DNA of 64,000 nt. Origin: Bacteroidota bacterium. Lineage in GTDB: Bacteria > Bacteroidota > Bacteroidia > Bacteroidales > GCA-2711565. The stretch covers positions 1-64,000 of the forward strand of contig JAHIVC010000099.1 of NCBI GenBank assembly GCA_018816945.1. The letters are read 5' to 3'. Of the stretch, positions 30,441-51,765 are shown in pieces (position 1 is the stretch's first letter; each line of letters starts with the position of its first letter). The translations under genes were made by a program, and so were the position numbers. Under the pieces are notes generated by a model. The model saw nothing but the letters and a program-made list of their open reading frames with translations. It had not been told where the DNA came from and did no database searches.

Positions 30441-30495
30441 GAATATCGAATCGCATTTAATTACATATCGTTTAACTATTAACCATTTAATTCAA

Positions 30496-32781: not shown

Positions 32782-32805
32782 CAAAAAAAAATAAAAATTT
32801 GAATT

Positions 32806-33873: not shown

Positions 33874-33928
33874 GGAAAAAGAATGAACAACAATCGTATA
33901 TCAACTGTATTACTATTGTATGACAAAT

Positions 33929-33972
33929 AAAAATAAGACTTTTAAGCAGGCTTGCTCAAAAGTCTTATTTTT
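33929..33972. terminator. Bidirectional terminator between convergent genes
   Basis: AAAATAAGACTTTT and AAAAGTCTTATTTT flank an inner AGCA/TGCT pair around a GGCT loop, with a single mismatch. Long A and T tracts on both sides serve the receptor operon and the convergent threonine dehydrogenase. Confidence 0.8.
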
Positions 33973-33986
33973 ATATCCTTTTAAAT

Positions 33987-34949: not shown

Positions 34950-35089
34950 ATTGTATGTTTTTTATGTAGTGTTATATAATTAACAAAAAGCGTGGCAAAT
35001 GTAATCAAATTTACAAAAAGAGGGGACTTCTTTTTAGGTTTTTCAAGTTTATTTTGCTGTAAACAATCCATTTAAAACACAAAATGTAC

Positions 35090-35097
35090 TATATTTG
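35090..35097 (+). promoter_or_regulatory. -7 element (TATATTTG) for kbl
   Basis: TATATTTG matches TAnnTTTG 52 bp before the ATG at 35150. No TTTG lies at the optimal upstream distance. Confidence 0.5.
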
Positions 35098-35149
35098 CGC
35101 CACGTAATGAAAAGCAAATATTACTTGTTATAAATAAAACATTATTAAA

Positions 35150-36340
35150 ATGTACGGTAAAATAAAAGAACATCTACAAAAAGAAATAGCCGATATTAAA
35201 GAAGCCGGCTTATTCAAAAACGAACGTATTATTACAACCCCTCAAAAAGCGGATATTAAAGTCAGTACCGGCGAGGATGTATTAAACTTTTGTGCAAACA
35301 ATTACCTTGGTTTGTCAAACCACCCACGATTGATTGCAGCAGCTAAAAAAGGGTTGGATTCACACGGATATGGAATGTCGTCTGTACGTTTCATTTGCGG
35401 GACCCAGGATTTACACAAAACATTAGAAGCTAAAATTGCTGAATTTTTTGGTACCGAAGATACCATTCTTTATGCAGCTTGTTTTGATGCCAATGGTGGA
35501 GTATTTGAACCTTTGTTCAACGAAGAGGATGCGATTATTTCGGATTCACTGAACCATGCTTCTATTATCGACGGTGTTCGCCTATGTAAAGCACAGCGCT
35601 ATCGCTATAATAATGCCGATATGGCCGATCTTGAAGTAAAATTGATTGAAGCACAAGCACAACGTTTCAGAATTATTGTTACGGATGGTGTATTTTCAAT
35701 GGATGGAAACGTAGCTCCTTTGGATAAAATCAACGAACTAGCTAAAAAATACGATGCTATGATCATGGTTGACGAATGTCACTCTGCCGGCGTTGTTGGT
35801 AAAACAGGCCGTGGAGTAACCGAACTTTTCAATATTCGCGGCGAAGTTGATATCATTACCGGAACCCTTGGAAAAGCCTTTGGTGGTGCCATTGGTGGAT
35901 TCACAACCGGGCGTAAAGAAATCATTGACATTTTGCGTCAGCGTTCTCGTCCTTATTTGTTCTCTAACTCAATCCCACCAGCTGTAGCCAGTGCGGGTAT
36001 CGAAATGTTCGACATGATGGCCGAAACTTCTGAATTGCAGGATAAATTGCACAAAAATACCGAGTATTTTGTTGGAAAAATGACTGAAGCAGGATTTGAT
36101 ATTAAACCTACCAAATCTGCTATTTGCGCTGTGATGCTTTACGATGCAAAACTTTCACAGGTGATGGCTTCCAATTTATTGCAGGAAGGCATTTATGTGA
36201 TCGGGTTCTATTATCCAGTGGTTCCAAAAGATCAGGCACGTATCCGTGTTCAATTGTCAGCCGGACACGAACAAAAACACCTTGACAAATGTATCACAGC
36301 CTTTACCAAAGTGGGTAAAGAATTGGGCGTTTTGAAATAA
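35150..36340 (+). CDS. kbl: Glycine C-acetyltransferase (2-amino-3-ketobutyrate CoA ligase)
   Basis: 396 aa alpha-oxoamine synthase. PLP enzyme that splits 2-amino-3-oxobutanoate with CoA to glycine and acetyl-CoA. Visible landmarks: FCANNYLGLSNHP, SSVRFICGTQDLHK, the Asp/His pair MVDECHSAG that contacts PLP, and the Schiff-base Lys in GTLGKAFGGAIGG (about 243). Length and motifs are those of Kbl, not of the longer BioF or SPT. Divergent from the threonine dehydrogenase with a 200-bp gap; ends in a strong terminator. Confidence 0.93.
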   Translation: MYGKIKEHLQKEIADIKEAGLFKNERIITTPQKADIKVSTGEDVLNFCANNYLGLSNHPRLIAAAKKGLDSHGYGMSSVRFICGTQDLHKTLEAKIAEFFGTEDTILYAACFDANGGVFEPLFNEEDAIISDSLNHASIIDGVRLCKAQRYRYNNADMADLEVKLIEAQAQRFRIIVTDGVFSMDGNVAPLDKINELAKKYDAMIMVDECHSAGVVGKTGRGVTELFNIRGEVDIITGTLGKAFGGAIGGFTTGRKEIIDILRQRSRPYLFSNSIPPAVASAGIEMFDMMAETSELQDKLHKNTEYFVGKMTEAGFDIKPTKSAICAVMLYDAKLSQVMASNLLQEGIYVIGFYYPVVPKDQARIRVQLSAGHEQKHLDKCITAFTKVGKELGVLK

Positions 36341-36364
36341 TCCAAAAAACAAAACTATATTCGC

Positions 36365-36396
36365 AGCCCACGGTTAGACCGTGGGCTGTTTTTTTT
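36365..36396 (+). terminator. Intrinsic terminator after kbl
   Basis: AGCCCACGGT (36365-36374), loop TAG, ACCGTGGGCT (36378-36387), then a run of eight T's after one G. Confidence 0.9.
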
Positions 36397-36417
36397 ATGC
36401 ATCTAATGAATTCTTAG

Positions 36418-36425
36418 TAAATTTG
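36418..36425 (+). promoter_or_regulatory. -7 element (TAAATTTG) for cysS
   Basis: TAAATTTG 23 bp before the ATG at 36449, just after the kbl terminator, so cysS has its own start of transcription. The upstream element is poor. Confidence 0.5.
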
Positions 36426-36448
36426 TCTTAACAACCAATCTAATCTCA

Positions 36449-37969
36449 ATGGAAAACAATCTTATCATATATAATACCCTGAGCCGTAAAAAAGAACTTT
36501 TTCGACCTTTGAATAGTCCATTTGTTGGGATGTATGTTTGCGGACCCACCGTTTATGGCGATGCCCATCTGGGACATGCCCGTCCGGCCATTACGTTCGA
36601 TCTTGTCTATCGATATCTTCTTCATTTGGGATATAAAGTACGTTATATTAGGAACATTACTGATGTTGGTCATCTGGAAGCTGATGCCGATGAAGGTGAA
36701 GATAAGATTGCTAAAAAGGCCAGAATTGAAAAATTGGAGCCAATGGAAGTGGCACAATATTATATAAATCGTTACCGCGATAATATGCGGCAATTAAATG
36801 TTTTACCACCAAGTATCGAACCTCAGGCATCAGGCCATATCATTGAGCAAATTGAAATGGTCCGGAATATTTTGGAGAAAGGTTATGCTTACGAAACCAA
36901 TGGTTCCTTATATTTTGATGTTGAAAAATACAATCAATCGCATCCTTACGGAATTCTTTCCGGTCGAAAAATCGAAGATTTGATGGCAAATACCCGAGAA
37001 CTTGAAGGTCAGGATGAAAAGAAAAATCCCATGGATTTTGCGCTTTGGAAAAAAGCACAACCCGAACATATCATGCGATGGCCCTCTCCCTGGAGTGATG
37101 GTTTCCCCGGTTGGCACATGGAATGCTCTGCCATGGGATGTAAATATTTAGGTGAACAATTCGATATTCATGGTGGTGGCATGGATTTGATGTTCCCACA
37201 TCATGAAGCGGAAATTGCCCAATCACAGATTGCCAATGGCAAACAAGCCGTAAAGTATTGGATGCACAATAATATGGTAACGCTGGATGGACAAAAAATG
37301 GGTAAATCCTTAGGTAACGCGATCGATTTACAAGCGACATTTAGTGGCGACCATAAATTGATGGAACAGGCTTACAGCCCTATGACCATCCGTTTCTTTA
37401 TTCTTCAGGCTCATTATCGTTCCACTTTGGATTTTTCAAACGCAGCATTGCAAGCAGCGGAAAAAGGTTTAGCCAGATTACTCAGAGCCACAGAAACACT
37501 CCATGGATTAAAAGCTAGTGATAAATCTGATTTTAATGTTCAGGAATTAATACAGAAATGCTATGATGCCATGAACGATGATTTCAATAGTCCTATTACA
37601 ATAGCCAATCTGTTTGATGGGGTAAGATGGATCAATTCGGTAAACGACGGTAAAGCCAGTCTGGATTCAAAAGATTTAGAAGCCCTTAAAAAGCTTTACA
37701 ACGATTTTGTGTTTGATATTTTGGGATTAAAAACGGAAGAAACAAATACTTCTAGAAATGATGAGGTGGTAGAAAAATTATTAGAAGCCTTATCAAATGC
37801 AAGACAACGTGCTAAGGAAACCAAAAACTGGACTGAGTCTGATAAAATAAGAAATGATCTTGCCAATGCTGGAATTATTGTTCTGGATCAAAAAGACAAT
37901 GTTAGCTATGAAATTAAAGATATGATGAACAGAATCTTTAACATAAACTCAGCTCCTAAGACAGAATAA
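36449..37969 (+). CDS. cysS: Cysteinyl-tRNA synthetase
   Basis: 506 aa class I synthetase. The zinc/amino-acid Cys is in [17 protein letters not shown] (about 30), which also contains the HIGH motif as HLGH. The second Cys is in [12 protein letters not shown] and the metal His pair in [10 protein letters not shown]. The KMSKS loop reads KMGKS (about 290). The DALR anticodon-binding part follows (about 365-430), and a C-terminal helix ends the protein. Length is slightly above the E. coli enzyme. It lies convergent to the ancestral tyrS position if the 11-kb segment at 38134-49380 is removed. Confidence 0.95.
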
Positions 37970-38028
37970 AGAAAATTCTTAAAATTGACTATCCCCATGG
38001 CAAGCCAAGGAATTTTTTGCCAACTTTA

Positions 38029-38062
38029 TTTCAGCAAGCTGAAAATCGATTTTTCTTTTTTT
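38029..38062 (+). terminator. Probable cysS terminator
   Basis: TTTCAG, loop CAAG, CTGAAA (38029-38044), followed after six bases by TTTTTCTTTTTTT. The stem is short, so confidence is moderate. Confidence 0.5.
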
Positions 38063-38081
38063 AACCCCTCTACCTACGGCA

Positions 38082-38103
38082 TCTCCCCTAAAAATAGGGG
38101 AGA
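38082..38103. repeat. Hairpin TCTCCCCTA/TAGGGGAGA
   Basis: Perfect 9-bp stem (38082-38090 and 38095-38103) with loop AAAA. No T-run follows on the plus strand. Possibly a dispersed repeat or part of a convergent terminator. Confidence 0.6.
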
Positions 38104-38144
38104 GAGTTTGGAAACCCCGATTCAAGCATCGAGGAATTTTAAGA

Positions 38145-38204
38145 CTAAATAACTTTCACCAAAAAATAATTTTTCTTCCCTTTCTGGATCAGGATATATT
38201 TTTT
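38145..38204 (-). pseudogene. Displaced 3' end of tyrS (19 codons and stop)
   Basis: Read on the minus strand the segment gives [19 protein letters not shown] and TAG, against [19 protein letters not shown] and TAA at the end of the intact tyrS (49373-49432). Over the first fifty bases (38153-38202 against 49381-49430) three bases differ, all at synonymous third positions (Lys, Ile, Tyr). An in-frame TGA lies just upstream of the match. A looser match continues about ten bases past the stop (AATTTTAA-ACTA). The copy has the same orientation as tyrS, so the two form a direct repeat flanking the 11-kb segment. Confidence 0.85.
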
Positions 38205-38294
38205 TCAGCAGACAATATATTTTTATTTATCTTTATATACTCCCATTTTAATATAGACTAAAATAATTAATAGAGGGTTAGCTTCGTTTGGAAA

Positions 38295-41189
38295 ATGAAG
38301 AAATTAGCTTTTTTAACAATAATACTGATTATTTCTCTTAAAGTTAATTCTCAGGAGTTCGCTACTCGACTATATACCCCACAACAAGATGGGTTACTTC
38401 ATATTCAGGTGCGATGTGTGAAGCAAGCATCAGATGGCCGGATATGGGTTGGGACCCAGGGAGGATTAAGCTGCTTTGATGGACTGGAATTTAAGAATTA
38501 TACTGAACAAGATGGATTATCTGCCAACTTAATCTATGACATTCAACCCTGGAAAGATTCTATTTTTGTTGTCACACGAGATGGAATTGATATAATTGTC
38601 GATGGAAAAATAATTAATTATTTTTCAGATGAGAAAATTAAATTTGTCAGGGGGAAATTTAAAATAGATGAAGAATATCAATACCTTATTGCTTACGACT
38701 ATAATCAATCTTTTCTTTTTGACATCAGAAAAAAAGAAATGCACCTATTTCCTGACTCCCTGCAAACAAAAGGAAATCTTATTGCAGACATAACTGAAAA
38801 TTCTATCATCATTGGTAAAGGAAACACCCTTTATGAATTACCTTTTGGCAGCGAAGAATTTAAAACTGTTTTTGAATTTAAGACCAATATTGGCAGAATA
38901 GAAATTTTTAACGATCACATTTTTGTGCTTTGCTATCATCCTGATTATCCAAACGAAGAAAGGGGGATTATGCACCAACTTGTAAATAATGAGGGAATAA
39001 TTAACGAAATTCCTTTTAAAATTAATAATGGTTTAACTTTTACAGGCGATGAATTCATAGATCATTATTGGGTTTTTTCGAAATACGGAAATAATTTTTT
39101 ATCAACTAATGAGGGCCATTTAGTCTATTTTGATAATAAAAAACCTACAATTTATTCAAAAAAATATAATTTTATTAATGGTGCTACTGAAGATCAGAAT
39201 GGGAATGTTTGGATTGCTACAGAAAAAGGCTTGTTAAAAATTTTTACCAAAAAATTTCAATATTACACTCCCGAACAAGGCTTTACTGAAAATGTATGGA
39301 CAGCCGCAGGGATTAACGATTCCCTTATGTTATTTGGATCGTATAATAATCGTATTCATGTTTATAAAAATCAAAAAGATTTAAAAATTAATGATTCTGG
39401 TGCGTTTTATCATTCAAGTTATTCAGGGGCATGTTATGGTTTTCATAATGATTTATTGGTTTGTACTTTCCCTGGAATTGCCAGATATGATTTCACTACC
39501 AACAAGATATACATCATCAACGACAAGATGCCGGAACCTTCCCTAACTTTATATAAAGATGACCTAAATAAAAGAGTGCTTGTTGGCAATTTACGGACAC
39601 TGGTTTCATTAAACGATGATTATAGCACTGAACGATTGTTTGATTTAACCAGCATTGGCAATTTCTATACCATCATATCAATTGCTGTCAAAGACAATAA
39701 AATATTATTGGGTTTAACAAAGGGACTTTTAGAGTTTGACCCCATTACAAAAAGTGCCCATTATATTATCAATGATAATATCAGATTTAATTCCATCCTA
39801 GTTGATGATGCCGGGGCAATTTGGGCTGCCACCAGCAAAGGCTTAATGCATATCACAAAAGACACTTCATACTTTATTCAGGGAATTGAAAATCCAAATG
39901 AGCTATATGGAATAATAAGTGTTAAAAATAAATTATTTACAACAAGCCAAACAACACTTTATACGGTTGATTTAAAAGAATACGATCAAACAAAAAGCAA
40001 TTATCTTAAATCCTATGATTTATCCGATGGTTTTCAGGGTAACGGCCCACATCAAAATGCTTTTTTTACCGATTATGAAAATAATATCTGGTTACCCGCA
40101 TCAACGGCTGTAGTTAAAATTTTCCCGAGCCAATTCGAAAACAATAGTCAACTTTTAAATACAGAAATTGTTGATTTCGGTATTTCTGATGGAAAAACAG
40201 ATTTCATTTCTCTAAATATAAACGAAGATTTAGCCATATCATATTCGCAAAACAATGTTAAATTAACCTTTGTTGCAGTAAACCAGATAAACCCTGAAAA
40301 AACAGAATACTCTTTTACCTTGGAAAATAGTAAAAGGAAATGGCATGCTGTGCAAAAAGAACGTTACGCTTCATTTATCAACTTGCCTCACGGAAATTAT
40401 ATATTCACAGTAAAGGCATCTTCTGAAAATTCATTTGAAAAGTCGCAGGAATCAGTCCTGTTTTTTACCATTCGCGCACCATTTTGGTATCAATGGTGGT
40501 TCTTAATTTTTGTATTCTTTTCATTTACCGGGATGGTTATTGGTGTGATTAAATTTGTCAAACTCAAAGAACAGAAAAAAAAATATATAAAAACCGAACT
40601 GCTTCAACTTAAAAACATCGCTTTATCCCTTCAAATAGATCATCATTTTATTGCCAATTGTACCTCAAAAATTGTGATCCTAAACGAGTCCGGAAACTTT
40701 AATGAAGCAAACAATTATACTCGTACATTCTCAAATTTTCTTAAATCGAACCTCAAACACCTTAGGGCAGATGAAATTACTTTGGAAGATGAATTAACGA
40801 TTATTAAACACTATGTTGAACTTGAACAGTTGTATGGCAAAAGATTTAAATTTGATCTGAACCTAGATAAAAACATTGAACCAACACAAATAAATATTCC
40901 TCCTTTTTTGATTCAGCCCTTGGTGGAAAACGCGATTAAACATGGCGCCAAAAAATGTGATGAGGGTATTGGTGAAGTATCAATTGAGATTCAATCAATC
41001 AATAAACAACTTTTCATAAATATATCCGATAATGGGCCGGGAATGGACAGCAAAAATGAATTTACCGATGGAAATAGGTTGAGCCTGGATATCATCAAGG
41101 ACAGATTGAGGTTAATTGGGAAAAGTGCAGGAATAAATTTTAACAGCTCTGAAAAAGGCACAAAATTTATTATTACTTTACCATTGTAA
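38295..41189 (+). CDS. Propeller-sensor histidine kinase, LytS type
   Basis: 964 aa. Signal peptide (MKKLAFLTIILIISLKVNSQ), then a periplasmic two-component-propeller region (about 25-620; for example ASDGRIWVGTQGGLSCFDG and NGNVWIATEKGLLKIF), a Y_Y_Y Ig-like domain (about 645-725) and one transmembrane helix (about 732-755, WWFLIFVFFSFTGMVIGVI). The cytoplasmic part is a His_kinase domain with the acceptor in DHHFIANC (about 783; the usual NPHFLFN is altered) and a HATPase_c with PLVENAIKHG and DNGPGM. It would phosphorylate the LytTR regulator encoded 10 bp downstream. The ligand is unknown; similar sensors detect glycans or cell-envelope states. Confidence 0.9.
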   Translation: MKKLAFLTIILIISLKVNSQEFATRLYTPQQDGLLHIQVRCVKQASDGRIWVGTQGGLSCFDGLEFKNYTEQDGLSANLIYDIQPWKDSIFVVTRDGIDIIVDGKIINYFSDEKIKFVRGKFKIDEEYQYLIAYDYNQSFLFDIRKKEMHLFPDSLQTKGNLIADITENSIIIGKGNTLYELPFGSEEFKTVFEFKTNIGRIEIFNDHIFVLCYHPDYPNEERGIMHQLVNNEGIINEIPFKINNGLTFTGDEFIDHYWVFSKYGNNFLSTNEGHLVYFDNKKPTIYSKKYNFINGATEDQNGNVWIATEKGLLKIFTKKFQYYTPEQGFTENVWTAAGINDSLMLFGSYNNRIHVYKNQKDLKINDSGAFYHSSYSGACYGFHNDLLVCTFPGIARYDFTTNKIYIINDKMPEPSLTLYKDDLNKRVLVGNLRTLVSLNDDYSTERLFDLTSIGNFYTIISIAVKDNKILLGLTKGLLEFDPITKSAHYIINDNIRFNSILVDDAGAIWAATSKGLMHITKDTSYFIQGIENPNELYGIISVKNKLFTTSQTTLYTVDLKEYDQTKSNYLKSYDLSDGFQGNGPHQNAFFTDYENNIWLPASTAVVKIFPSQFENNSQLLNTEIVDFGISDGKTDFISLNINEDLAISYSQNNVKLTFVAVNQINPEKTEYSFTLENSKRKWHAVQKERYASFINLPHGNYIFTVKASSENSFEKSQESVLFFTIRAPFWYQWWFLIFVFFSFTGMVIGVIKFVKLKEQKKKYIKTELLQLKNIALSLQIDHHFIANCTSKIVILNESGNFNEANNYTRTFSNFLKSNLKHLRADEITLEDELTIIKHYVELEQLYGKRFKFDLNLDKNIEPTQINIPPFLIQPLVENAIKHGAKKCDEGIGEVSIEIQSINKQLFINISDNGPGMDSKNEFTDGNRLSLDIIKDRLRLIGKSAGINFNSSEKGTKFIITLPL

Positions 41190-41199
41190 TTTTAAAAAT

Positions 41200-41937
41200 A
41201 TGATCAATGCAGTAATCATCGACGACGAACCTTTCCACAGCAACCATTTAAAAAAGTTATTAACTGAATATTGTCCAGAAGTTAGTATTATTAAGGAAAT
41301 AAGTTCCGGGAAGAAAGCCATTAAAGATTTGGCAAAACAAGATTTCGATTTGGTTTTTTTCGATGTGATGTTGGGAGACATGACCGCTTTTGATGTCCTT
41401 AAACAAATTGCTGATTATCGGTTCCATATTATTTTTATTACCGCTTATGATGATTTTGCGATAAATGCCTTTAAAGTCAATGCCATCGATTATCTCCTAA
41501 AGCCCATTGAAGGAAAGAATTTACAAAAAGCTGTTGAAAAAGCTATGAAACAAATCTTTTCGGAAAACGAGAAACATAATTTATTGTTTGATTTTAACCT
41601 GTCAAAATCAAAATGTATTTGTATTTCCGAAAGTAATTCATATACATTTATCCCATGCACAAGTATTCAATACTGCAAATCGAGTGGGAATTACACCGAA
41701 ATATTTTATGAAGAAAGCGGTGTACAACAAAAAGTGCTTGCCACCAAAAATCTTCTGTATTTTGAAAAGAAACTTCTTAACTACCAATTCATACGCATTC
41801 ATCAATCGGTATTGGTGAACCGTGAAAATATCCGTAAAATAATTAAAAAAACGGGCGAATTGATTTTGAATAATGAAATGAAGTTTGAGATAGCCCGCAA
41901 CCGGAAAAATGCAATTTTAAAATTACTCATAGAATAA
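41200..41937 (+). CDS. LytTR-family response regulator
   Basis: 245 aa. N-terminal receiver (1-120) with IIDDEP, phospho-Asp in LVFFDVMLGD (about 55), Thr/Ser in FITAYDD and Lys in YLLKPIEG. C-terminal LytTR DNA-binding domain (about 140-245) with IQYCKSSGNYTEIFYEE and FIRIHQSVLVNRENI. Cognate to the kinase just upstream, in one operon. The next gene in the same direction is the FISUMP lipoprotein, 190 bp away, a plausible target. I could not identify a repeated LytTR binding site in that gap. Confidence 0.93.
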   Translation: MINAVIIDDEPFHSNHLKKLLTEYCPEVSIIKEISSGKKAIKDLAKQDFDLVFFDVMLGDMTAFDVLKQIADYRFHIIFITAYDDFAINAFKVNAIDYLLKPIEGKNLQKAVEKAMKQIFSENEKHNLLFDFNLSKSKCICISESNSYTFIPCTSIQYCKSSGNYTEIFYEESGVQQKVLATKNLLYFEKKLLNYQFIRIHQSVLVNRENIRKIIKKTGELILNNEMKFEIARNRKNAILKLLIE

Positions 41938-42067
41938 ATACCTATTTGCATTTCTTCCCTTTTCTTTGGAAACCCATAAATCCAATCTCAAAATAACAGA
42001 ATCAATGCTGCTTATAACCAAATATTAAGTGGTTATTCTTATTAAATGACTGATTGATTGCTTATAG

Positions 42068-42075
42068 TAAATTTG
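42068..42075 (+). promoter_or_regulatory. -7 element (TAAATTTG) for the FISUMP lipoprotein
   Basis: TAAATTTG 51 bp before the ATG at 42127. The upstream -33 position reads AATG, so the promoter may need an activator such as the adjacent LytTR regulator. Confidence 0.5.
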
Positions 42076-42126
42076 TTTGTAAGCCCAGTATTGCAACACC
42101 AATATTCAAATTAACGATAAGTTATA

Positions 42127-45100
42127 ATGAAAAAATTCATCCCAATTTTATTCTTAGGAATAATTTTAAGCTCAATAATTTATGTAAGCTGCAAAAAAGA
42201 AGTCGCAAAAGTTATTCCTGCCATTAAAGCATTAGCTGTGACTAACATTACAGCAAACTCAGCTACATCGGGAGGAGAGGTTACTGCAGATGGCGGTGCA
42301 CCAGTAACAGCTCGTGGAATGTGCTGGAGCTTAAACCAAAACCCAACTACTGTAGATACTAAAACAAGCAATGGTTCAGGTATAGGCAGTTTCACAAGTT
42401 CGATAACCGATTTAACTCCGGGTACAACCTATTATATAAAGGCATACGCCATAAACTCCGTTGGAACTTCATACAGCAGCCAATCAACATTTACAACTTT
42501 GGCTTTGGCACCTGTTTTAACCACTACTGACTTGACCGCTGTTACTTCTACTTCAGCAAATAGCGGTGGTAATATATCCAACGATGGTGGGTCTCCGGTA
42601 ACAGCACGTGGAGTATGCTGGACCACTACTCAAAACCCAACCATTGCTGATAGTAAAACAACAGATGGCACAGGTACAGGTGAATTTACAAGTTCCATTA
42701 CGGGATTAACTCCCGGGTCAACTTATTATATCAGAGCTTATGCCACCAATAGCATAGGAACTTCGTATGGAAACCAAATCAGTACAACCACAACTGCTAT
42801 TCTACCAACTGTAGCTACTACTCCTGTTACAGCTATAGCTTCAACAACAGCTACAAGTGGAGGTAATATCACCGATGATGGGGGAGCTGCTATAACTGCC
42901 CGAGGAGTTTGTTGGAGCATTACACAAAACCCTACCATTGCTGATAATAAAACTACAGATGGCACAGGCACAGGCGTTTACACCAGTTCCATGACTGACT
43001 TAACTCCCGGTGCAACTTATTACATCAGGGCTTACGCCACCAATAGCATAGGAACAGCTTATGGAAACCAAATAACAATTACAACTTTGGCTATTTTACC
43101 GACAATCACAACTACTGCTGTAACTGCTATTACATCAGCAACGGCAACAAGCGGTGGTAATATTACAAACGATGGAGGTGCATCAGTGACTTCCCGAGGA
43201 GTTTGTTGGAATACAAGCCAAAACCCGACCACAGCCGATAATAAAACCTCAAATAGCACAGGAACAGGTGTATTCACAAGTTCTCTGACAGGATTAACAC
43301 CGGGAACGACTTATTATGTAAGGGCTTATGCAACAAATAGCATCGGTACATCCTATGGTAGTCAGGCCACCTTCACAACTTTGTCTGTACTTCCTGTTTT
43401 GGTCACTACAGATGTTTCATCAATTACCTCCACAACTGCAAGTAGTGGCGGTAATATTATTTCTGATGGTGGAGCACCTGTTACTTCCCGTGGTGTTTGT
43501 TGGAGTACTTCTTCCTCTCCTATAATTACCGACAGTAAAACCATCAATGGCAATGGAACAGGATCCTTTACTTCAAATTTATCAGGTTTAACGGCTAATA
43601 CTTTATACTATGTTAGAGCCTACGCCACAAATAGCCAGGGGACAGCATATGGCAATCAATTATCTTTTTTAAGCACAGTTGGAGTTACTGGAACTTTTAC
43701 CGACTCAAGAGATGGGAAAATTTATAAAACTGTTAAAATAGGTAGCCAAACCTGGATGGCCGAAAATCTGGCTTACCTGCCCGCAGTAAGCCCATCATCA
43801 AATGGGTCTGAAACTGCACCTTATTATTATGTATATGGTTACGAAGGAACCAGTGTAAGTTCAGCAAAAGCTACTGCTAATTTCGCAACTTATGGTGTTT
43901 TGTATAATTGGCCTGCCGCAAAGACAGCTTGCCCCAACGGTTGGCATTTACCAAGTGATGCCGAATGGACAACCCTTACAACTTATTTGGGGGGCGAAAG
44001 TGTTGCGGGAGGTAAACTAAAAGAAACAGGCACAAGCCATTGGCTAAGCCCGAATACTGGAGCAACCAATAGCAGCGGCTTCACGGCTCTACCGGGTGGT
44101 GGCCGTAACGGTTATGGTGGTTTCTACGTTATTGGCAGCCAAGGTCACTGGTGGAGTTCTACAGAGTACTATACATACTATGCCTGGAGCCGGACAATCT
44201 ACAATGGTAATGAAGGTGTAAGCCTTTACTACAACTATGAAGGAAATGGGTTTAGTGTTCGTTGCATAAAGAGTGAGGGGCAAACATCAACCCTACCAAC
44301 TGTTACCACAAGTTCAATTTCAAATATAGATCAAACTACTGCCACTGGAGGTGGGAATGTTACTAGTGATGGAGGAGCATCAGTGACTGCAAAAGGAATT
44401 TGTTGGAGCACTTCTTCCTCTCCTACAATAGCCGACAGCAAAACTATAGATGGTAACGGATTAGGAACTTTTAGCTCTAATATAACAGGGTTATCTGGAA
44501 ATGTTCAATACTATGTTCGTGCTTATGCTACAAACAACCAGGGAACTGCTTATGGAAACCAAGTAACATTTACCACAGAACAGGCATTGTCACAACCAAC
44601 TGTTACCACAACCTCAATTACAAGCATTACCCAAACCACCGCTATCGGTGGGGGAAATGTTATGACTGATGGTGGAGCACCTGTTACTTCCCGTGGTGTT
44701 TGTTGGAGTACATCTACTTCTCCAACTACTGCCAACAGCAAAACTACTGATGGGACAGGAACAGGTACTTACACCAGTTCAATTACTGGATTAGTTCCTG
44801 GTACAACTTATTATATCAGAGCTTATGCAACAAATAGCCAAGGAACTACTTATGGTGTACAGGTTACCTTTACTGCACTTTTAGGCGGTGGCACTGGTAA
44901 CGTAACGGATGTTGAAGGCAATGTTTATCAAACTGTTACCATTGGTACACAGGTGTGGATGGTTGAGAACCTTAAAACAACAAAGTACCAAGATAATACA
45001 TCTATCCCGTTGGTTACCGACAATGCTGCATGGAGCAACTTAATAACCCCCGGTTATAGTTGGTATAACAATGATGCAGTAAATAAAGCTACTTATGGAG

Positions 45101-47013
45101 CATTGTACAACTGGTACACCGTGAACACAGGTAATCTTTGCCCAACAGGATGGCATGTGCCTACTAATACCGAATGGACAACCCTCACAAGCTATTTGGG
45201 TGGTACGAGTATTGCGGGTGGCAAATTGAAAGAAACTGGCACAAGCCATTGGCTAAGCCCAAATACAGGCGCAACCAACGAAACAGGCTTTTCAGCAGTT
45301 CCGGGTGGCGACCGTAACGACCTCACTGGAAGATTTTACAACATTGGGTTTGGTGGTAACTGGTGGAGTTCCTCAGAGACTGGTACAGAGTATGCCTGGT
45401 CTAGGGGAATGGGCTACTATGACAGCGATGTCTATGTCTCAAGCTATCGTAAGCAAAGCGGGCTTTCTGTACGTTGTATTAAGGGTGATAACTATCCTCA
45501 ACAAATTCCTGTCTTAACAACTACCACTCCAACAATCATTTCTGCTGGCTCCGTTCAAAGTGGAGGTAATATCACAAGCGATGGTGGAGCTGTAGTGACT
45601 TCCCGTGGAGTATGCTGGAGCACGAGCCAGAACCCTACAACGGAAAATAGCAAAACAACGAATGGAACAGGCACAGGCATTTTCACAAGTACCATTACAG
45701 GATTAACTGTCGGTGCAACCTATTACATAAGAGCTTATGCCACTAATAGTATTGGAACTGCTTATGGAAACCAGATAAGTACTACCATAACGGCAATCAT
45801 ACCAACCATAACAACTACTTCTTTAACAGCTATTACATCAACCACTGCAACTAGTGGAGGTAATATAACCGATGATGGAGGAGCAGCAGTGACTGCCCGA
45901 GGGGTTTGCTGGAATACAAGCCAGAACCCAACAATCGCAGATAGCAAAACAACGGATGGAACAGGCACAGGTATTTTCACAAGTTCTATTACAGGATTAA
46001 CTCCCGGTGCAACCTATTATATCAGGGCTTACGCCACCAATAGCATCGGAACTGCTTATGGAAACCAGATGAGTACTACCATAGCGGCTATCATACCAAC
46101 AATAACAACCATTAATGTTACAGACATTACATCAACCACTGCATCAAGTGGAGGTAATATCACTAGTGATGGTGGAGCACCAGTAACTGTGCGAGGAGTA
46201 TGCTGGAGCACGAACCAGAACCCTACTACGGCAGACAGCAAAACCTCTGATGGAACAGGAACTGGCATATTTACAAGTTCCCTTACAGGATTAATAGTAG
46301 GCACAACATATAATTTAAGAGCCTATGCTACTAACTTAGTAGGCACTGTTTATGGCAACGTTATATCGTTTCATATACAGATTAGTGAGATAATCTTTAA
46401 TCCTAATATAACTTATGGAACAGTAACTGATACTGTTGGGAATGTGTACAAAACAATAATAATTGGCACGCAAACTTGGATGGCTGAAAATTTGAGAACT
46501 ACCAGGTACAAAAATAATTTATCTATCCCATTGGTTACCGATCATATTACTTGGAGCAACAAAACAAACTCAGCTTATTGTTGGTTTAACAATGATGCAG
46601 CAACTTATAAATCTACTTATGGAGCATTGTACAACTGGTACACCGTGAACACAGGTGATCTTTGCCCAACAGGTTGGCATGTACCTACGGATGACGAATG
46701 GACAACCCTTACAACCTATTTGGGAGGTATAAGTGTTGCGGGTGGCAAATTGAAAGAAACTGGCACAAGCCATTGGCTAAGCCCAAATACAGGAGCAACC
46801 AACGAAACAGGCTTTTCAGCCGTTCCGGGTGGCTACCGTGGCGACACTGGGTTGTTCTTCTACTCTGGGCGCGAAGGTGGATTTTGGTGGAGTTCTACAA
46901 CGTCCAATACGAGCGCAGCCTGGTATAGGATAATGTACTTCGGTGGCTACAACGTAGGTCGGAACTACGACTCTAAAAAAGATGGGGCTTCTGTTCGTTG
47001 TATTAAGGATTAA
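42127..47013 (+). CDS. Surface lipoprotein with ten Fn3-like repeats and three FISUMP modules
   Basis: 1628 aa. Lipobox IIYVSC (Cys about 22). Repeat units of about 97 aa (core SGGNITxDGGAxVTxRGVCWS then TYYIRAYATNSxGT) occur five times (about 34-517), twice (about 721-917) and three times (about 1126-1417). Between and after them are three FISUMP domains (about 519-717, 921-1120, 1429-1628), each with IGxQxWMxENL, YGxLYNW, CPxGWHxPxxxEWTTL and final SVRCIK. Modules 2 and 3 are almost identical at DNA level around 45175-45305 and 46695-46825, then diverge strongly before the last residues. The FISUMP fold is C-type-lectin/FGE-like, so a ligand-binding surface is likely. The long tandem repeats invite recombination. 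Confidence 0.88.
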   Translation: MKKFIPILFLGIILSSIIYVSCKKEVAKVIPAIKALAVTNITANSATSGGEVTADGGAPVTARGMCWSLNQNPTTVDTKTSNGSGIGSFTSSITDLTPGTTYYIKAYAINSVGTSYSSQSTFTTLALAPVLTTTDLTAVTSTSANSGGNISNDGGSPVTARGVCWTTTQNPTIADSKTTDGTGTGEFTSSITGLTPGSTYYIRAYATNSIGTSYGNQISTTTTAILPTVATTPVTAIASTTATSGGNITDDGGAAITARGVCWSITQNPTIADNKTTDGTGTGVYTSSMTDLTPGATYYIRAYATNSIGTAYGNQITITTLAILPTITTTAVTAITSATATSGGNITNDGGASVTSRGVCWNTSQNPTTADNKTSNSTGTGVFTSSLTGLTPGTTYYVRAYATNSIGTSYGSQATFTTLSVLPVLVTTDVSSITSTTASSGGNIISDGGAPVTSRGVCWSTSSSPIITDSKTINGNGTGSFTSNLSGLTANTLYYVRAYATNSQGTAYGNQLSFLSTVGVTGTFTDSRDGKIYKTVKIGSQTWMAENLAYLPAVSPSSNGSETAPYYYVYGYEGTSVSSAKATANFATYGVLYNWPAAKTACPNGWHLPSDAEWTTLTTYLGGESVAGGKLKETGTSHWLSPNTGATNSSGFTALPGGGRNGYGGFYVIGSQGHWWSSTEYYTYYAWSRTIYNGNEGVSLYYNYEGNGFSVRCIKSEGQTSTLPTVTTSSISNIDQTTATGGGNVTSDGGASVTAKGICWSTSSSPTIADSKTIDGNGLGTFSSNITGLSGNVQYYVRAYATNNQGTAYGNQVTFTTEQALSQPTVTTTSITSITQTTAIGGGNVMTDGGAPVTSRGVCWSTSTSPTTANSKTTDGTGTGTYTSSITGLVPGTTYYIRAYATNSQGTTYGVQVTFTALLGGGTGNVTDVEGNVYQTVTIGTQVWMVENLKTTKYQDNTSIPLVTDNAAWSNLITPGYSWYNNDAVNKATYGALYNWYTVNTGNLCPTGWHVPTNTEWTTLTSYLGGTSIAGGKLKETGTSHWLSPNTGATNETGFSAVPGGDRNDLTGRFYNIGFGGNWWSSSETGTEYAWSRGMGYYDSDVYVSSYRKQSGLSVRCIKGDNYPQQIPVLTTTTPTIISAGSVQSGGNITSDGGAVVTSRGVCWSTSQNPTTENSKTTNGTGTGIFTSTITGLTVGATYYIRAYATNSIGTAYGNQISTTITAIIPTITTTSLTAITSTTATSGGNITDDGGAAVTARGVCWNTSQNPTIADSKTTDGTGTGIFTSSITGLTPGATYYIRAYATNSIGTAYGNQMSTTIAAIIPTITTINVTDITSTTASSGGNITSDGGAPVTVRGVCWSTNQNPTTADSKTSDGTGTGIFTSSLTGLIVGTTYNLRAYATNLVGTVYGNVISFHIQISEIIFNPNITYGTVTDTVGNVYKTIIIGTQTWMAENLRTTRYKNNLSIPLVTDHITWSNKTNSAYCWFNNDAATYKSTYGALYNWYTVNTGDLCPTGWHVPTDDEWTTLTTYLGGISVAGGKLKETGTSHWLSPNTGATNETGFSAVPGGYRGDTGLFFYSGREGGFWWSSTTSNTSAAWYRIMYFGGYNVGRNYDSKKDGASVRCIKD

Positions 47014-47096
47014 ATATTTACTAAACTCAACCCTATGATCTTATAACAAGTTACTATCAAATTATTAAAACTCCTATCAAACCTAACATTTAGAAT

Positions 47097-47681
47097 ATGA
47101 ATACAATTAATGATTCAAGAATGAAAAAAATTGCAATAGATATTTTTGAGGTATCTAAATTATTTCCTGGTAAAATAAAGGTGAAACAGATGGAAGAACC
47201 AGTGCCTAAGGAAGAAATTATGATAGATTTTGATTGTGATTTTGAAGCAGAATACCAAATTGACAATCAAGCTGTTATTGAGAAAATTAAAGAAATTGCA
47301 AAAAGAGGTTATGATGATCATGTTATTGTAATAGCAAATAAGCAAGAGTTGAAATATGAATTGTATTCCCATAGTGGTTCGAATTATTCTAAATCTTCCG
47401 CAACTTCAACCTATTCAAAATCATCCGGTAATAGTGGCGGGTGTTTTATAGCAACTGCTGTATATGGGACTCCTTATGCCAATGAAGTTATCATCCTTAA
47501 AGAATTTAGGGATAATTGGTTATTGAATTTCAGATTCGGAAAAATATTCATAAAGTTCTACTATCTTATTTCACCTCCAATAGCCAATAAAATTTCTAAA
47601 AGCAAATTACTAAAGACTTTTACAAAAATTACATTAATAATCCCTGTAATTAAAATTGCAAAACATTTTAAAAGAAAGTAA
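47097..47681 (+). CDS. CFI-box-CTERM domain protein (194 aa)
   Basis: N-terminal 90 residues are mixed alpha/beta with acidic patches (MIDFDCDFEAEYQIDNQ) and no recognised fold. A Ser-rich linker (SSATSTYSKSSGNSGG) leads to CFIATAVYGTPYANEVIILK, the hallmark of the CFI-box-CTERM domain, followed by a hydrophobic stretch (IKFYYLISPPIANKI) and a basic tail (KHFKRK). In other bacteria this C-terminal box occurs on varied proteins and its role is not settled; a membrane-association or processing signal is often assumed. First gene of the small-gene cluster; gap to the next is 8 bp. Confidence 0.75.
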   Translation: MNTINDSRMKKIAIDIFEVSKLFPGKIKVKQMEEPVPKEEIMIDFDCDFEAEYQIDNQAVIEKIKEIAKRGYDDHVIVIANKQELKYELYSHSGSNYSKSSATSTYSKSSGNSGGCFIATAVYGTPYANEVIILKEFRDNWLLNFRFGKIFIKFYYLISPPIANKISKSKLLKTFTKITLIIPVIKIAKHFKRK

Positions 47682-47689
47682 ATTTAACC

Positions 47690-47857
47690 ATGTCAACAAT
47701 TAAATCTGGCGATCGATGTGCCGATTGCCCTCATTGTAAAGTATGGTCGAGCGACCATAAAAAGGCAAGTTGCACTCTTTATACAAGCGATCAGGGGTTC
47801 CATCCTGACAGGCCAGCACCTGGCAAATGTGTAAATAAAGTTACCCGCAAATATTAA
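47690..47857 (+). CDS. Cys-rich microprotein (55 aa)
   Basis: Begins MSTIKSGDRCADCPHCKVWS. Cys at 10, 13, 16, 28 and 47, with His at 15 and 23, suggest zinc or another metal. The CxxCxxC start and the Gly-Lys-Cys end (PAPGKCVNK) are distinctive. Starts 8 bp after the CFI-box gene and ends 17 bp before the next gene. No family recognised; coding status is supported by the tight packing and cysteine pattern. Confidence 0.65.
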   Translation: MSTIKSGDRCADCPHCKVWSSDHKKASCTLYTSDQGFHPDRPAPGKCVNKVTRKY

Positions 47858-47874
47858 TATCAAAAATATGAATT

Positions 47875-48237
47875 ATGAATACCTTTAAAGTACATCAACT
47901 TAAAGTTCATATGACCCCTAAATCGGAAACCTTGTTAAAGTTTCCAGATATTGGGAATGTTGAATTTTCCTTTCCAACGACAATAAAAACAGTCCTTTTT
48001 ATTTATTGTAACAACAGGGGCTTTGATGAGTACGAATGTTGTGGAAGGCTTTATGCATCGGATAATCCAAAAGAAACTGGAGAGCTTCACATCGGGAAAC
48101 TTTTTATTACATTTAGTGGGAGTTCCGAGGGTAAAAATTACAAAACCATCATTGAAATTTTGGAACATCATAAGGATGGTTCTTTTACTATTATAACAGA
48201 AGATGGGAAGAGAAATCATATTAAAAAATCGTATTAA
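47875..48237 (+). CDS. Hypothetical protein (120 aa)
   Basis: Soluble, beta-rich and without a signal peptide. Segments such as VEFSFPTTIKTVLFIYCNNR, GRLYASDNPKETGELHIGKL and GSFTIITEDGKRN suggest a small beta-barrel or sandwich. Three Cys are scattered without a zinc pattern. Sits 6 bp before the zinc-ribbon gene in the same cluster. I recognise no family. Confidence 0.65.
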   Translation: MNTFKVHQLKVHMTPKSETLLKFPDIGNVEFSFPTTIKTVLFIYCNNRGFDEYECCGRLYASDNPKETGELHIGKLFITFSGSSEGKNYKTIIEILEHHKDGSFTIITEDGKRNHIKKSY

Positions 48238-48243
48238 AATATC

Positions 48244-48795
48244 ATGATGGAATTAACCGGTAATTGTCCATTCTGCAATCACCCTATAGACCCAACAAAC
48301 GTATCTGTTTTGTGTACGCAATGCGGGCAAATTAATGAACATCACAACATCATATTCAATTGTGATTTTTGTCATACAGATATTGATAAAATGGCTTGCC
48401 CAAACTGTAAAAAAGAGTTTACAGGAATATTACTTATTGGGAGCTATAAATATAAAACAAAATTTATTGAACCTTTTAACATCCCTCCGGTTGATAATTT
48501 TGAAGCAGCAAATTTCTTAAAAAAAATAACAGGGGATGAAGAATTCGATTTTATATGGGATGAACCACCAAAAGCAATGATGGTATACGAGTTGAAATAT
48601 GCTTATCCGGAATATAGTTATGCACATGGGATGCTACTATCTATTAGTATTGATTTATGGGAGCATTTATTAAGTAGCGGTGAATTTAGCACAATGGAAC
48701 CATATTTAAAAAAATACGTTATCGGGAGCATCACCATTGAGTATGGTGGAAACCTCCCAACTACAAGAATTAAGGCCAAGCCCTTAAAACTTTAA
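48244..48795 (+). CDS. Double zinc-ribbon protein with novel C-terminal domain (183 aa)
   Basis: Two zinc ribbons at the N-terminus: CPFCNHPID with CTQCGQ (about 8-32), and CDFCHTDI with CPNCKKEF (about 40-60). Residues about 65-183 form an alpha/beta domain (FIWDEPPKAMMVYELKYAYP, SISIDLWEHLLSSGEFS) that I do not recognise. The ATG at 48247 is an equally good start. Cytoplasmic by composition. Fourth gene of the cluster; the pairing with another zinc-ribbon gene suggests a role on nucleic acid or in a metal-stabilised complex, but this is a guess. Confidence 0.7.
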   Translation: MMELTGNCPFCNHPIDPTNVSVLCTQCGQINEHHNIIFNCDFCHTDIDKMACPNCKKEFTGILLIGSYKYKTKFIEPFNIPPVDNFEAANFLKKITGDEEFDFIWDEPPKAMMVYELKYAYPEYSYAHGMLLSISIDLWEHLLSSGEFSTMEPYLKKYVIGSITIEYGGNLPTTRIKAKPLKL

Positions 48796-48826
48796 TTATT
48801 CAACTAATAACCAAAAACATAAAAAT

Positions 48827-49021
48827 ATGAGCGATTTTTATAGTTGTCCAAACTGTGGGCGAAAAGCAGAAAAATCAGTTTCATCCAATCATTTCCCCTT
48901 ACACACTTGCCGTAAATGTGGGAGAAAATATTGCAGTAATTGCGGTAATGGAAGCGGAACAATTTGTCCTAAATGTGGATCAACGGATTATTCTGACTAT
49001 GATAAAGTATATTCAAAATAG
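48827..49021 (+). CDS. Zinc-ribbon protein (64 aa)
   Basis: Eight cysteines in four CxxC pairs: CPNC, CRKC, CSNC and CPKC, giving two zinc sites, in a Ser/Gly-rich 64-aa protein starting MSDFYSCPNCGRKAEKSVSS. Resembles the zinc-ribbon modules often fused to other domains, here as a stand-alone gene. 5 bp before the beta-repeat gene. Confidence 0.72.
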   Translation: MSDFYSCPNCGRKAEKSVSSNHFPLHTCRKCGRKYCSNCGNGSGTICPKCGSTDYSDYDKVYSK

Positions 49022-49026
49022 ATACC

Positions 49027-49362
49027 ATGGGGCTAATTTATACTAAAAGTTTTGGAGGTGGCACTTGTGTTGGACGAATTGATAATTCCGGTAATGTTTA
49101 TACTGGGTCATTTGGTGGTTCATACAAAGGAAAAGTCGATTCAAACGGATATGTTTTAACCCCAAGCTTATCGGTTGTTGGGAGGATAAATTCAAATGGA
49201 CAGGTTTATTCTGGTGCTATCGGCGGTAGTTATAAAGGTAAAGTTGATTTATCCGGAAATATCTATGACAATAGTGGGTTTTTATTCGGATCAATAATTG
49301 CTAAAGCAGAGCCCCCCAATCAAAGAGCAGGAGGGGCTGCATATTTGATACTTCTAAGATAA
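49027..49362 (+). CDS. Beta-repeat protein, 5-fold beta-flower-like (111 aa)
   Basis: Built of about five short repeats with the pattern 'G-(R/K)-(I/V)-(D/N)-S-x-G-x-(V/I)-Y': VGRIDNSGNVYTGSFGGSY, KGKVDSNGYVL, VGRINSNGQVYSGAIGGSY, KGKVDLSGNIYDNSG. This fits the small closed beta folds named 5-fold beta-flower proteins in Bacteroidota. No signal peptide. A Gly-rich hydrophobic tail (GGAAYLILL) follows. Last gene of the cluster, ending 10 bp before the convergent tyrS stop. Confidence 0.7.
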   Translation: MGLIYTKSFGGGTCVGRIDNSGNVYTGSFGGSYKGKVDSNGYVLTPSLSVVGRINSNGQVYSGAIGGSYKGKVDLSGNIYDNSGFLFGSIIAKAEPPNQRAGGAAYLILLR

Positions 49363-49372
49363 GTGTAAAATT

Positions 49373-50647
49373 TTAAACTACTTTCACCAAAAAATAATTT
49401 TTTTTCCCTTTCTGAATCAGGATGTATTTTTTGTTTAGAAGATCTGTTTCGGAAATTTCGTAAGCATCATTCACTTTTTCTTTGTTGACAGAAACCCCAT
49501 TATCCTTTAACATTCTACGAGCTTCTCCCTTTGATGTAAATATGTTTGTAATATCAGAGAGAAATTCGATAATTCCGATTTTACCATTCACCAATTCACG
49601 ATTTACTTCACTCTGTGGAACGCCCTCAAAAACGCCCAACAAAGTACGCTCATCCAATTTTTTTAAACTTTCGGTAGTTCCCTTGCCAAACAGGATTTCA
49701 GAGGCTTCAACGGCCTGAATATATTCTTCCTCTGAATGTACCCGAACGGTAATATCTTTTGCCAACGCTCTCTGCAATTCACGTAAATGAGGAGCTTCAG
49801 CTTGTTGCTTTAATAATTCTTCAATTTCTTTCTCTGTAAACAAAGTAAATATTTTGATGTATCGGGCAGCATCTTCATCCGAAGTATTTAACCAGAATTG
49901 ATAAAATGCATAAGGTGATGTTCTTTCCGGATCGAGCCAAACATTGCCCGTTTCAGTTTTCCCAAATTTACCCCCATCCGCTTTTGTCACAAGGGGAGTG
50001 GTTAACGCAAATGCTTCGCCTCCTGATTTTCTGCGAATTAGTTCTGTACCTGTTGTAATGTTGCCCCACTGATCGGAGCCGCCCATTTGAAGCTTGCAGT
50101 TTTTATTTTCGTAGAGCCAATAAAAATCATAGCCCTGAACCAATTGGTAGCTGAATTCAGTAAAAGATAATCCGAATTCAAGCCGTTTCTTCACCGAATC
50201 TTTTGCTAACATATAATTGATGGTAATGTGCTTGCCGATGTCACGGATAAAATCAAGGAAGTTGTAATCTTTAAACCAATCGTAATTATTCACCACAATG
50301 GCTGAATTTTCGCCACAATCAAAATCCAAAAATTTTACCAATTGCCGTTTCTGTCCTTCTAAATTAAAATTCAAGGTTTCCATATCCAGCAGGTTTCGTT
50401 CTTGCGATTTACCTGAAGGATCACCAACCATTCCTGTGGCCCCACCAACCAAAACAACAGGTTTATGACCCGCCAATTGGAAATGCTTAAGCAACATTAA
50501 GGTTGCCAAACTTCCAATATGCAATGAATCGGCTGTTGGATCAAACCCAATATAACCGGCGGTCATTTCTTTTGCTAATTGTTCTTCAGTGCCCGGCATG
50601 ACATCATGAATCATGCCCCGCCATTTTAATTCATCAATAAAATTCAT
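49373..50647 (-). CDS. tyrS: Tyrosyl-tRNA synthetase
   Basis: 424 aa class I synthetase. The HIGH motif reads HIGS in [15 protein letters not shown] (about 42). Tyr-binding residues fit [13 protein letters not shown] and [10 protein letters not shown], and the KMSKS-like loop is [12 protein letters not shown] (about 228). A C-terminal S4 RNA-binding domain (about 360-424; [17 protein letters not shown]) ends in [12 protein letters not shown]. The last 19 codons are duplicated 11.2 kb away at 38145-38204. Own promoter candidate at 50664-50671. Confidence 0.95.
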
Positions 50648-50663
50648 TACTTAGTTTTCTTGC

Positions 50664-50671
50664 AAATATAA
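50664..50671 (-). promoter_or_regulatory. -7 element (TATATTTG) for tyrS
   Basis: On the minus strand TATATTTG lies 16 bp before the ATG at 50647. No good TTTG upstream. Confidence 0.5.
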
Positions 50672-50742
50672 AACTTAATGGGATATAGAGCAGGATGGAT
50701 AAAGCAGATATTAAAATCCCTTTTCGACTTTCTGAAATTATG

Positions 50743-50750
50743 TAACTTTG
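50743..50750 (+). promoter_or_regulatory. -7 element (TAACTTTG) directly in front of the epimerase ATG
   Basis: TAACTTTG ends four bases before the ATG at 50755. With the usual distance to the start of transcription, the mRNA would begin at or within a few bases of the ATG, so it may be leaderless. Confidence 0.45.
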
Positions 50751-50754
50751 TAAA

Positions 50755-51765
50755 ATGAATTTTGTAACAGGAGGAACGGGATTATTAGGCTCACATTTGC
50801 TATATGATTTACTAAGCAGGGGTGAAAAAGTAAGTGCCTTAAAAAGAACCTCAAGTAATATTGAGCAGGTGAGGAAGGTGTTTTCCTATTATAGACAGGA
50901 AGGTGATGATTTGTTTAATCAAATTGTATGGGTAGATGGGGATGTTTTGGATCTTTACTCATTGAAAGAAGCCCTGGAAGGAATAGATCATGTATATCAT
51001 TGTGCGGCGATTGTATCTTTTGATGCAAAAAAACGAGAACAAATCATACAGGATAATGTGTCTGGAACGGCCAACCTGGTTAATGCCTGTTTAGACCAAC
51101 GAATAAAAAAATATTGTCAGGTTAGTTCAATTGCCGCTATTGGAAAATCAGAAATATCAGGCACAATAACTGAGGACGGTCAATGGCAAAATTCTAAAAA
51201 TAAATCTGCTTACTCAATAAGTAAGCATCTTTCGGAAATGGAAGTATGGCGTGGAATAGCGGAAGGACTTAATGCCGTTGTAGTAAACCCAAGCATTATA
51301 CTTGGCCCTGGAAACTGGAATTCAGGGAGTTCTAAAATTTTCTCGACTATTTATGGTGGGTTGCGTTTTTACACAAAAGGCGTTACCGGCTATGTTGATG
51401 TACGAGATGTCAGTAAAGCGATGATTTTGCTAATGAAAAGTGATATTAACAGTCAACGATTTATTGTGAGTTCTGAAAATCTTTCGTATGAATATGTCTT
51501 TAAAAAAATGGCATCAAATTTAGGAGTTAAAAAACCGGATATTTATGCACGAAAGTGGGTGAGTGAATTAGGTTGGAGAATTGCTAAACTCAGAGAATCA
51601 ATATTTAATAAACCGGCACTGCTCTCGCGTGAAAATGCAAGGACTGCGCATAAATCATCTTATTATTCGTCTCAAAAATTGATCGATCATTTAGATTTTA
51701 AGTTTATACCCATCGAACAATCAATAAAAGATATTTCGAGGTTATTTTTAAACGAGTTTAAATAG
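50755..51765 (+). CDS. NAD-dependent epimerase/dehydratase (extended SDR) family protein
   Basis: 336 aa. Rossmann motif FVTGGTGLLGSHLLYDLL at the N-terminus, then VYHCAAIVSFDAKKR, catalytic Ser in CQVSSIAAIG and Tyr/Lys in YSISKHLSE (about 157). VNPSIILGPGNW matches the dihydroflavonol-reductase/hydroxysteroid-dehydrogenase-like branch rather than sugar epimerases. The substrate is unknown. Single gene, followed 85 bp later by a flavodoxin. Confidence 0.85.
   Translation: MNFVTGGTGLLGSHLLYDLLSRGEKVSALKRTSSNIEQVRKVFSYYRQEGDDLFNQIVWVDGDVLDLYSLKEALEGIDHVYHCAAIVSFDAKKREQIIQDNVSGTANLVNACLDQRIKKYCQVSSIAAIGKSEISGTITEDGQWQNSKNKSAYSISKHLSEMEVWRGIAEGLNAVVVNPSIILGPGNWNSGSSKIFSTIYGGLRFYTKGVTGYVDVRDVSKAMILLMKSDINSQRFIVSSENLSYEYVFKKMASNLGVKKPDIYARKWVSELGWRIAKLRESIFNKPALLSRENARTAHKSSYYSSQKLIDHLDFKFIPIEQSIKDISRLFLNEFK

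Follow-up and report, generated by a model that had tools for sequence, protein, structure and literature searches.

We describe an island of about 11 kb between cysS and tyrS, two essential genes, in a genome of the Bacteroidales (G000, a draft of 108 contigs). The island was very probably acquired and joined at the end of tyrS, with tyrS tails from two strains at its edges (rough probability 0.85). The DNA analyzed, hereafter the window, is a stretch of 64,000 nucleotides on a 513-kb contig. Within it, cysS on the + strand and tyrS on the − strand face each other, and the interval holds a dispersed repeat, an orphan copy of the tyrS tail (L), and then nine + strand genes, the last of which stops 10 bases short of the tyrS stop codon (Table 1). 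Direct repeats of the tyrS end thus lie at both island edges, L and the tail of tyrS itself (R), while tyrS is kept whole.

Table 1. Coordinates of the features at the cysS–tyrS locus (window positions).
Feature	Position	Strand	Basis and remarks
cysS	36449–37969	+	Pfam; last ~76 codons (from ~37739) divergent and foreign-looking, with a 15-residue extension
Dispersed intergenic repeat with TIR-like ends	37965–38150		Left end overlaps cysS stop, right end touches L
L, orphan copy of the tyrS 3′ end (19 codons + stop)	38145–38204	−	54/60 to R, 57/60 to G001
Possible crossover interval (partner 49404–49414), if the crossover was inside the tail	38176–38186		Switch of G001 agreement, positions 31–43; weak, 1/15 by chance
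Sensor histidine kinase, Reg_prop propeller and Y_Y_Y domain	38295–41189	+	Pfam
LytTR response regulator	41200–41937	+	Pfam
1628-aa surface protein, Ig/Fn3-like repeats, three FISUMP domains	42127–47013	+	Pfam, NCBIfam, repeats
CFI-box-CTERM protein, gene 1 of the six-gene module	47097–47681	+	NCBIfam NF041770; relative in G374
55-aa Cys-containing module protein	47690–47857	+	93% to G374
120-aa module protein	47875–48237	+	75% to G374
183-aa module protein	48244–48795	+	66% to G374
64-aa zinc-ribbon-like module protein	48827–49021	+	81% to G374; weak Zn-ribbon matches below cut-off
111-aa repetitive protein, last module gene	49027–49362	+	65% to G374; ends 10 bases before tyrS stop
R, 3′ end of intact tyrS	49373–49432	−	54/60 to L, 55/60 to G001
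tyrS, intact, 424 aa	49373–50647	−	96% to G001 TyrS

The segment between cysS and tyrS

The first-pass annotation had stated that removal of the segment leaves cysS and tyrS convergent, and this is the case. The corresponding empty site was found in G001, the closest sampled relative and a member of the same genus, in which cysS and tyrS are convergent, 66 bp apart, with no island genes between them. In a survey of 123 tyrS-bearing loci, some being second stretches of one genome, convergent cysS and tyrS were present on six non-self contigs, with aligned 3′ ends 73, 274, 572, 875, 1158, and 2261 bases apart. In the congeners G002, G003, and G004, tyrS is followed by other genes or cysS lies on a separate contig, indicating that the convergent pair is not universal even within the genus.

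The five congeners, of which G002 and G005 have a completeness of about 70%, gave no full-length relative of the kinase and partial matches only; the genes for the 183-aa and 120-aa proteins were absent from the four congeners in the sample. Across 393 genomes of the order, each of these two genes was found in two, G000 itself and G374, while the 183-aa gene occurred in one of 395 genomes of the phylum, namely the present one. Judged by this distribution, the segment is accessory DNA. The GC content was approximately 31–33% for the kinase and regulator, 40–45% for the FISUMP gene, 31–34% for the small genes, and 34–39% for the flanks. As inferred from gene order, the kinase and regulator probably control the adjoining surface protein.

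Searches of the nine island proteins against Pfam and NCBIfam gave no integrase family, in agreement with the earlier reading. For eight of the proteins (all except the response regulator), PADLOC gave no match, and PHROGs matched the kinase, the FISUMP protein, and the 111-aa protein, none as an integrase; the FISUMP protein matched a ‘minor tail protein’ through its repeats. No tRNA gene was found in the window and no Rfam match in 36000–51000. A phage, plasmid, or viral origin was set aside, as the 183-aa protein had no match in plasmids or phages; in viral contigs, neither this protein nor the 120-aa protein had a confirmed relative.

G374 carries counterparts of all six small genes in unchanged order, at 65–93% identity, the first over its last 79 residues only. 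There, the module is split by an inserted stretch, presumably an IS66-type element, and has a long hairpin on either side. Upstream of it lies a tyrosine recombinase, for which NCBIfam gave an integron integrase as the best match (223.5 bits, below the cut-off of 265). The tyrS gene of G374 is on a different contig. The integron-like locus (L135, contig C93, 106–215, 5359–5466, and 6052–7815) encodes this recombinase as a 587-aa protein with a long N-terminal extension; its hairpins were attC-like by eye, a likeness judged without a model, and one folds with a z of −3.25 as DNA. In the same locus, a DUF805 RNA motif (RF03081, 5866–5929 on the − strand, 59.1 bits vs a gathering threshold of 51.1) directly precedes a TM2-domain gene adjoining the recombinase.

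A recombinase of the same kind is present in G000 itself (L153, contig C17, 8493–9644). It has 383 aa, is 36% identical to that of G374 over 259 aa with similarity in the first 64 residues, scored 182 bits against the integron integrase model, also below the cut-off, and is followed by the start of a methyltransferase-like gene at the contig end. A single copy of the 9-mer AGTGTAAAA is present in the window, at 49362–49370, exactly where the last island gene gives way to the tyrS stop, and GTTRNCNNNNAGTGTAAAA was found among 193 loci only beside the integron-like loci of G374 (L135, 82–100) and G000 (L153, 9716–9734). One match in the window is expected by chance, so this coincidence may be meaningless.

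Like integron cassettes, the module has a relative between attC-like hairpins, beside an integron-type recombinase. Unlike them, it has no comparable hairpin around it in the window: ten inverted-repeat pairs were detected in 46950–49500, none like those of G374. An integron origin of the whole island was rejected on this ground, and an integron insertion would not be expected to copy 60 bases of tyrS.

Two tails of tyrS at the island edges

The repeat of the tyrS end was confirmed in the same orientation, with 54 of 60 bases identical between 38145–38204 and 49373–49432. By comparison, the best ungapped tyrS-tail match in 200 first-order Markov sequences of segment length was 37/60, with a mean of 31.4. 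The tail occurs at just these two places in the whole draft genome, as the search for further copies revealed no third one; a third match of the DNA query, on contig C88, turned out to be the neighbouring dispersed repeat.

Over the first 50 bases in the coding direction, there were three differences (repeat positions 52, 43, and 31), all synonymous, as the first-pass annotation had reported. Its view that the differences are synonymous only holds for this part and fails overall, with four of six being synonymous: the last ten bases contain a TAG vs TAA stop (position 1), an Ile/Val exchange (position 6), and a synonymous change (position 7). Nor does the similarity run past the stop as had been supposed, since only 3 of the 10 bases that follow it match. 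Homology ends at base 60 on the inner side, and 38205–38222 resembled tyrS tails no better than random pieces of the window, 256 of 300 of which reached its best score and 62 of 300 its mean. An extension of L beyond 60 bases, which by eye looked like tyrS of G005, was rejected on this control. The joint of L is located in a run of T.

To both tails, G001 was the closest of 100 equal-length tails (110 read, with at least two genomes present twice); the next-best tail shared 49 bases with L and 50 with R. Position 13 (C) is the sole base common to L and R against G001 and need not be derived, because it is also present in three of the four other congeners. From these comparisons, L is not a young copy of R, and the two would stem from two tyrS lineages of one clade, G000/G001. 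L encodes an intact tail and most L/R differences are synonymous; both lineages appear to have been functional recently.

G001 agrees with L at positions 1, 6, 7, and 31, and with R at positions 43 and 52 and beyond. This four-then-two order may loosely fit a crossover between 38175 and 38187, that is, within 11 bases; by arithmetic, the same order would arise without a crossover with a chance of 1/15, or 2/15 either way. Along tyrS, the comparison with G001 showed no sharp change, with 85–100% identity (0–15% difference) per 75 bases. The difference of R from G001 (5/60) is within this range, so R may be native.

The first-pass annotation took the remnant for the displaced original end and the present tyrS end for a replacement from another strain. 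Two tyrS lineages do appear to meet here, but the assignment of L as native and R as replacement was unsupported, and the idea of R as the foreign end was weakened because R is as close to G001 as the rest of tyrS. Tail L would be an old 3′ end left beyond the new genes and belongs to a lineage other than that of the present tyrS; either L or R may be the resident end.

The mosaic left flank

A contig of G001 covers approximately 15.6–56.4 kb of the window, with large blocks 88–92% identical, the exceptions being 33987–34736 (78%) and 35130–37857 (85%). A two-breakpoint scan of 35130–37969 against G001 placed breakpoints at 36524 and 37739, and the differences from G001 across the three tracts were 273/1355 (20%), 71/1215 (6%), and 75/183 (41%). 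The left flank is, on this alignment, a recombination mosaic. While the body of cysS was 92–99% identical to G001 per 25 codons, its end was only 60–65% identical. The last ~76 codons showed 48–65% identity per 25 codons to G001, G003, G004, and G005, and G001 was 62–81% identical to G003, G004, and G005 in the same part. The 3′ end of cysS therefore looks foreign on sequence comparison. No displaced native cysS end was found in the window.

Further upstream, a 3.7-kb insertion (30252–33987), absent from G001 and G005, contains two long ORFs, the first of which resembles a TonB-dependent receptor by eye. In the adjoining tract, 33987–36524, the flanking genes are 20–22% divergent from G001. 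Insertion and divergent tract together (30252–36524) are another sign of imported DNA.

The dispersed repeat had 22 matches in G000, 31 in G001, and none in G002–G005 (E ≤ 0.001), and the nearest other copy was 79% identical. Members of the family have TIR-like ends, TCTTAAAATT...AATTTTAAGA, and in the copy next to cysS one end supplies the cysS stop codon. Because its ends overlap this stop and touch L, the repeat suggests that cysS, the repeat, and the tyrS tail were once direct neighbours. A clade-specific repeat directly before L is what would be expected for resident DNA.

Possible routes of acquisition

As to how the island arrived, our tentative choice, slightly preferred to site-specific integration, is homology-driven recombination with a strain of the same clade, by which the resident tyrS end was orphaned. 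The incoming DNA would have come from a related strain whose tyrS led into these genes; no strain with the module beside tyrS was found when genomes were searched for the genes of the 183-aa protein, the 120-aa protein, and the kinase. The incoming tyrS would have recombined with the resident tyrS by homology, so that an intact tyrS now leads into the new genes. At its far end, the new DNA would have been attached within the resident tyrS, 60 bases short of the stop and with no long stretch of homology, through homology-facilitated illegitimate recombination, and the resident tyrS end would have been orphaned as L at the far edge, still attached to the dispersed repeat and cysS. The order of these events is as we infer it.

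Such homology-driven recombination needs no enzyme of an element, would fit the recombinant neighbourhood, and has a described parallel. In Vibrio T6SS effector–immunity arrays and Rhs loci, newly gained modules have displaced old 3′ ends, which now lie behind them (PMC5361080); homology-facilitated illegitimate recombination, described as orders of magnitude rarer than ordinary recombination, is put forward there only as a possible mechanism. Orphaned 3′ ends of this kind are attributed to the same process (PMC3240628). These loci share with the present island a conserved gene body that is kept and leads into new genes, an old 3′ end at the far edge, and a module without a recombinase. Unlike in those loci, the anchor here is a housekeeping tRNA synthetase gene rather than a toxin gene and the protein end is almost unchanged; moreover, the new genes run against the anchor gene, and the anchoring crossover is not located. 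Besides the missing donor and the rarity of the process, homology-driven recombination has against it the foreign end of cysS left of L, for which this single event does not account, and the order of the sites, which points weakly to a crossover inside the tail of the type expected in site-specific integration.

Site-specific integration is a possible, only slightly less probable explanation. A circular element with a tyrS-like 3′ end would have recombined within 38176–38186/49404–49414, making L mostly the displaced native end and R the replacement, with an integrase that has since been lost or that worked in trans. Islands and integrative elements that sit at the 3′ ends of conserved genes are a known class, and the present island resembles them in the direct repeats of a gene 3′ end at its edges, the whole gene, and the empty site in a relative. 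The repeat is exactly the gene 3′ end and tyrS is intact, yet there is no integrase in the 11 kb. The agreement of the sites with G001 follows the order that such a crossover would leave, and the rebuilt empty site is 59/60 identical to G001; however, the order could arise by chance as calculated above, and R diverges from G001 no further than tyrS does elsewhere. Seven tyrosine recombinases were detected in the genome by Pfam, two of XerC/XerD size and five others, but near them the tyrS tail gave only short weak matches, the best of 25 bases (E 0.002, L157).

Reuse of the site was likewise unconvincing. When 115 tyrS loci were each searched with their own tail, 18 had matches at E ≤ 0.01, none longer than 36 bases, and no same-strand downstream copy exceeded 18 bases. 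Within a limited reach, this speaks against the tail as a recurrent attachment site: the 115 loci include the own locus, five second stretches, and one contig twice, leaving at most 108 distinct non-self loci, and 55 of the 115 have at least 5 kb downstream of tyrS. Viral contigs contained no exact match to a degenerate pattern of the tail. Among the open-licence PubMed Central papers listed, no case of tyrS as an integration site, including attB/attL, was found; the only listed paper with tyrS discusses tRNA synthetase duplications in Acinetobacter. Unlike 3′-end integrative elements, the present island has no integrase, no known circle, and no detected site reuse, and both flanking genes are affected. 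Of the simple integration into tyrS that was first proposed, the empty site and the accessory segment stand, whereas the missing integrase, the lack of a convincing second tail in the other tyrS loci searched, and the cysS 3′ end, which is foreign too, speak against it.

In another explanation, which we consider unlikely, a distant donor in which cysS is followed by kinase, regulator, and surface protein genes supplied both the island and the foreign 3′ end of cysS at once. Exchange would have taken place in cysS near 37739 and near the tyrS end, with the block of repeat and L as resident DNA trapped or inserted in between. This explanation draws on G017, a genome of another family with the only close full-length kinase relative (31–33% identity); among 295 genomes, only G017 was below E 1e-90 besides self, followed by G200 and G249 at ~1e-41. 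The G017 kinase begins 80 bp beyond the end of cysS; next come a LytTR gene, three ORFs (85, 108, and 394 aa), and a protein with the same Ig-like repeats, and no tyrS tail lies between cysS and kinase in this genome. A single case, this order could reflect a common source of the island and the foreign end of cysS, or could be a coincidence. A distant donor would account for the foreign end of cysS in G000, but the cysS end of G017 is not close to it (E 7e-11, behind many genomes), the kinases are just 31–33% identical, and the position of the repeat and L in between is left unexplained. The next kinases, those of G200 and G249, are 25% identical and have no cysS in the stretches read.

A kinase beside cysS as a general order was not supported, with none in the 15 stretches besides those of G017 reaching at least 8.6 kb from cysS; the 20 cysS stretches examined, including these 15, were the top of a match list and not a random sample. 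A weak kinase match was found in L175 (E 6e-7), 6.6 kb from cysS, and a match to the Ig-like repeats in L172, ~10.5 kb from cysS.

It is also conceivable, at long odds, that convergent tRNA synthetase 3′ ends form an unrecognised landing zone in Bacteroidales, in which cargo-only elements mobilised in trans attach at the tyrS tail and a similar event exchanged the end of cysS. If so, the kinase–regulator–surface protein cluster after cysS in G017 would be a second instance. An assembly artefact or a simple local duplication is very improbable: the genome is a draft of many contigs with a dispersed repeat beside the left junction, but the contig is 513 kb long, a nearest other repeat copy at 79% identity is unlikely to mislead an assembler easily, and a recent local copy is at odds with tails that differ at 6 of 60 bases and have no derived base in common.

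The acquisition described here is of an ordinary kind. It provides a clean example of an integrase-less island leaving a readable scar: the joint is marked by a housekeeping gene's orphaned tail, which helps to distinguish resident from incoming DNA. It also calls for caution, since a repeated gene end is not always an attachment site. As the locus shows, neither member of a convergent synthetase pair is exempt from swapping or duplication of its 3′ end, and such ends can be searched for systematically in other genomes.
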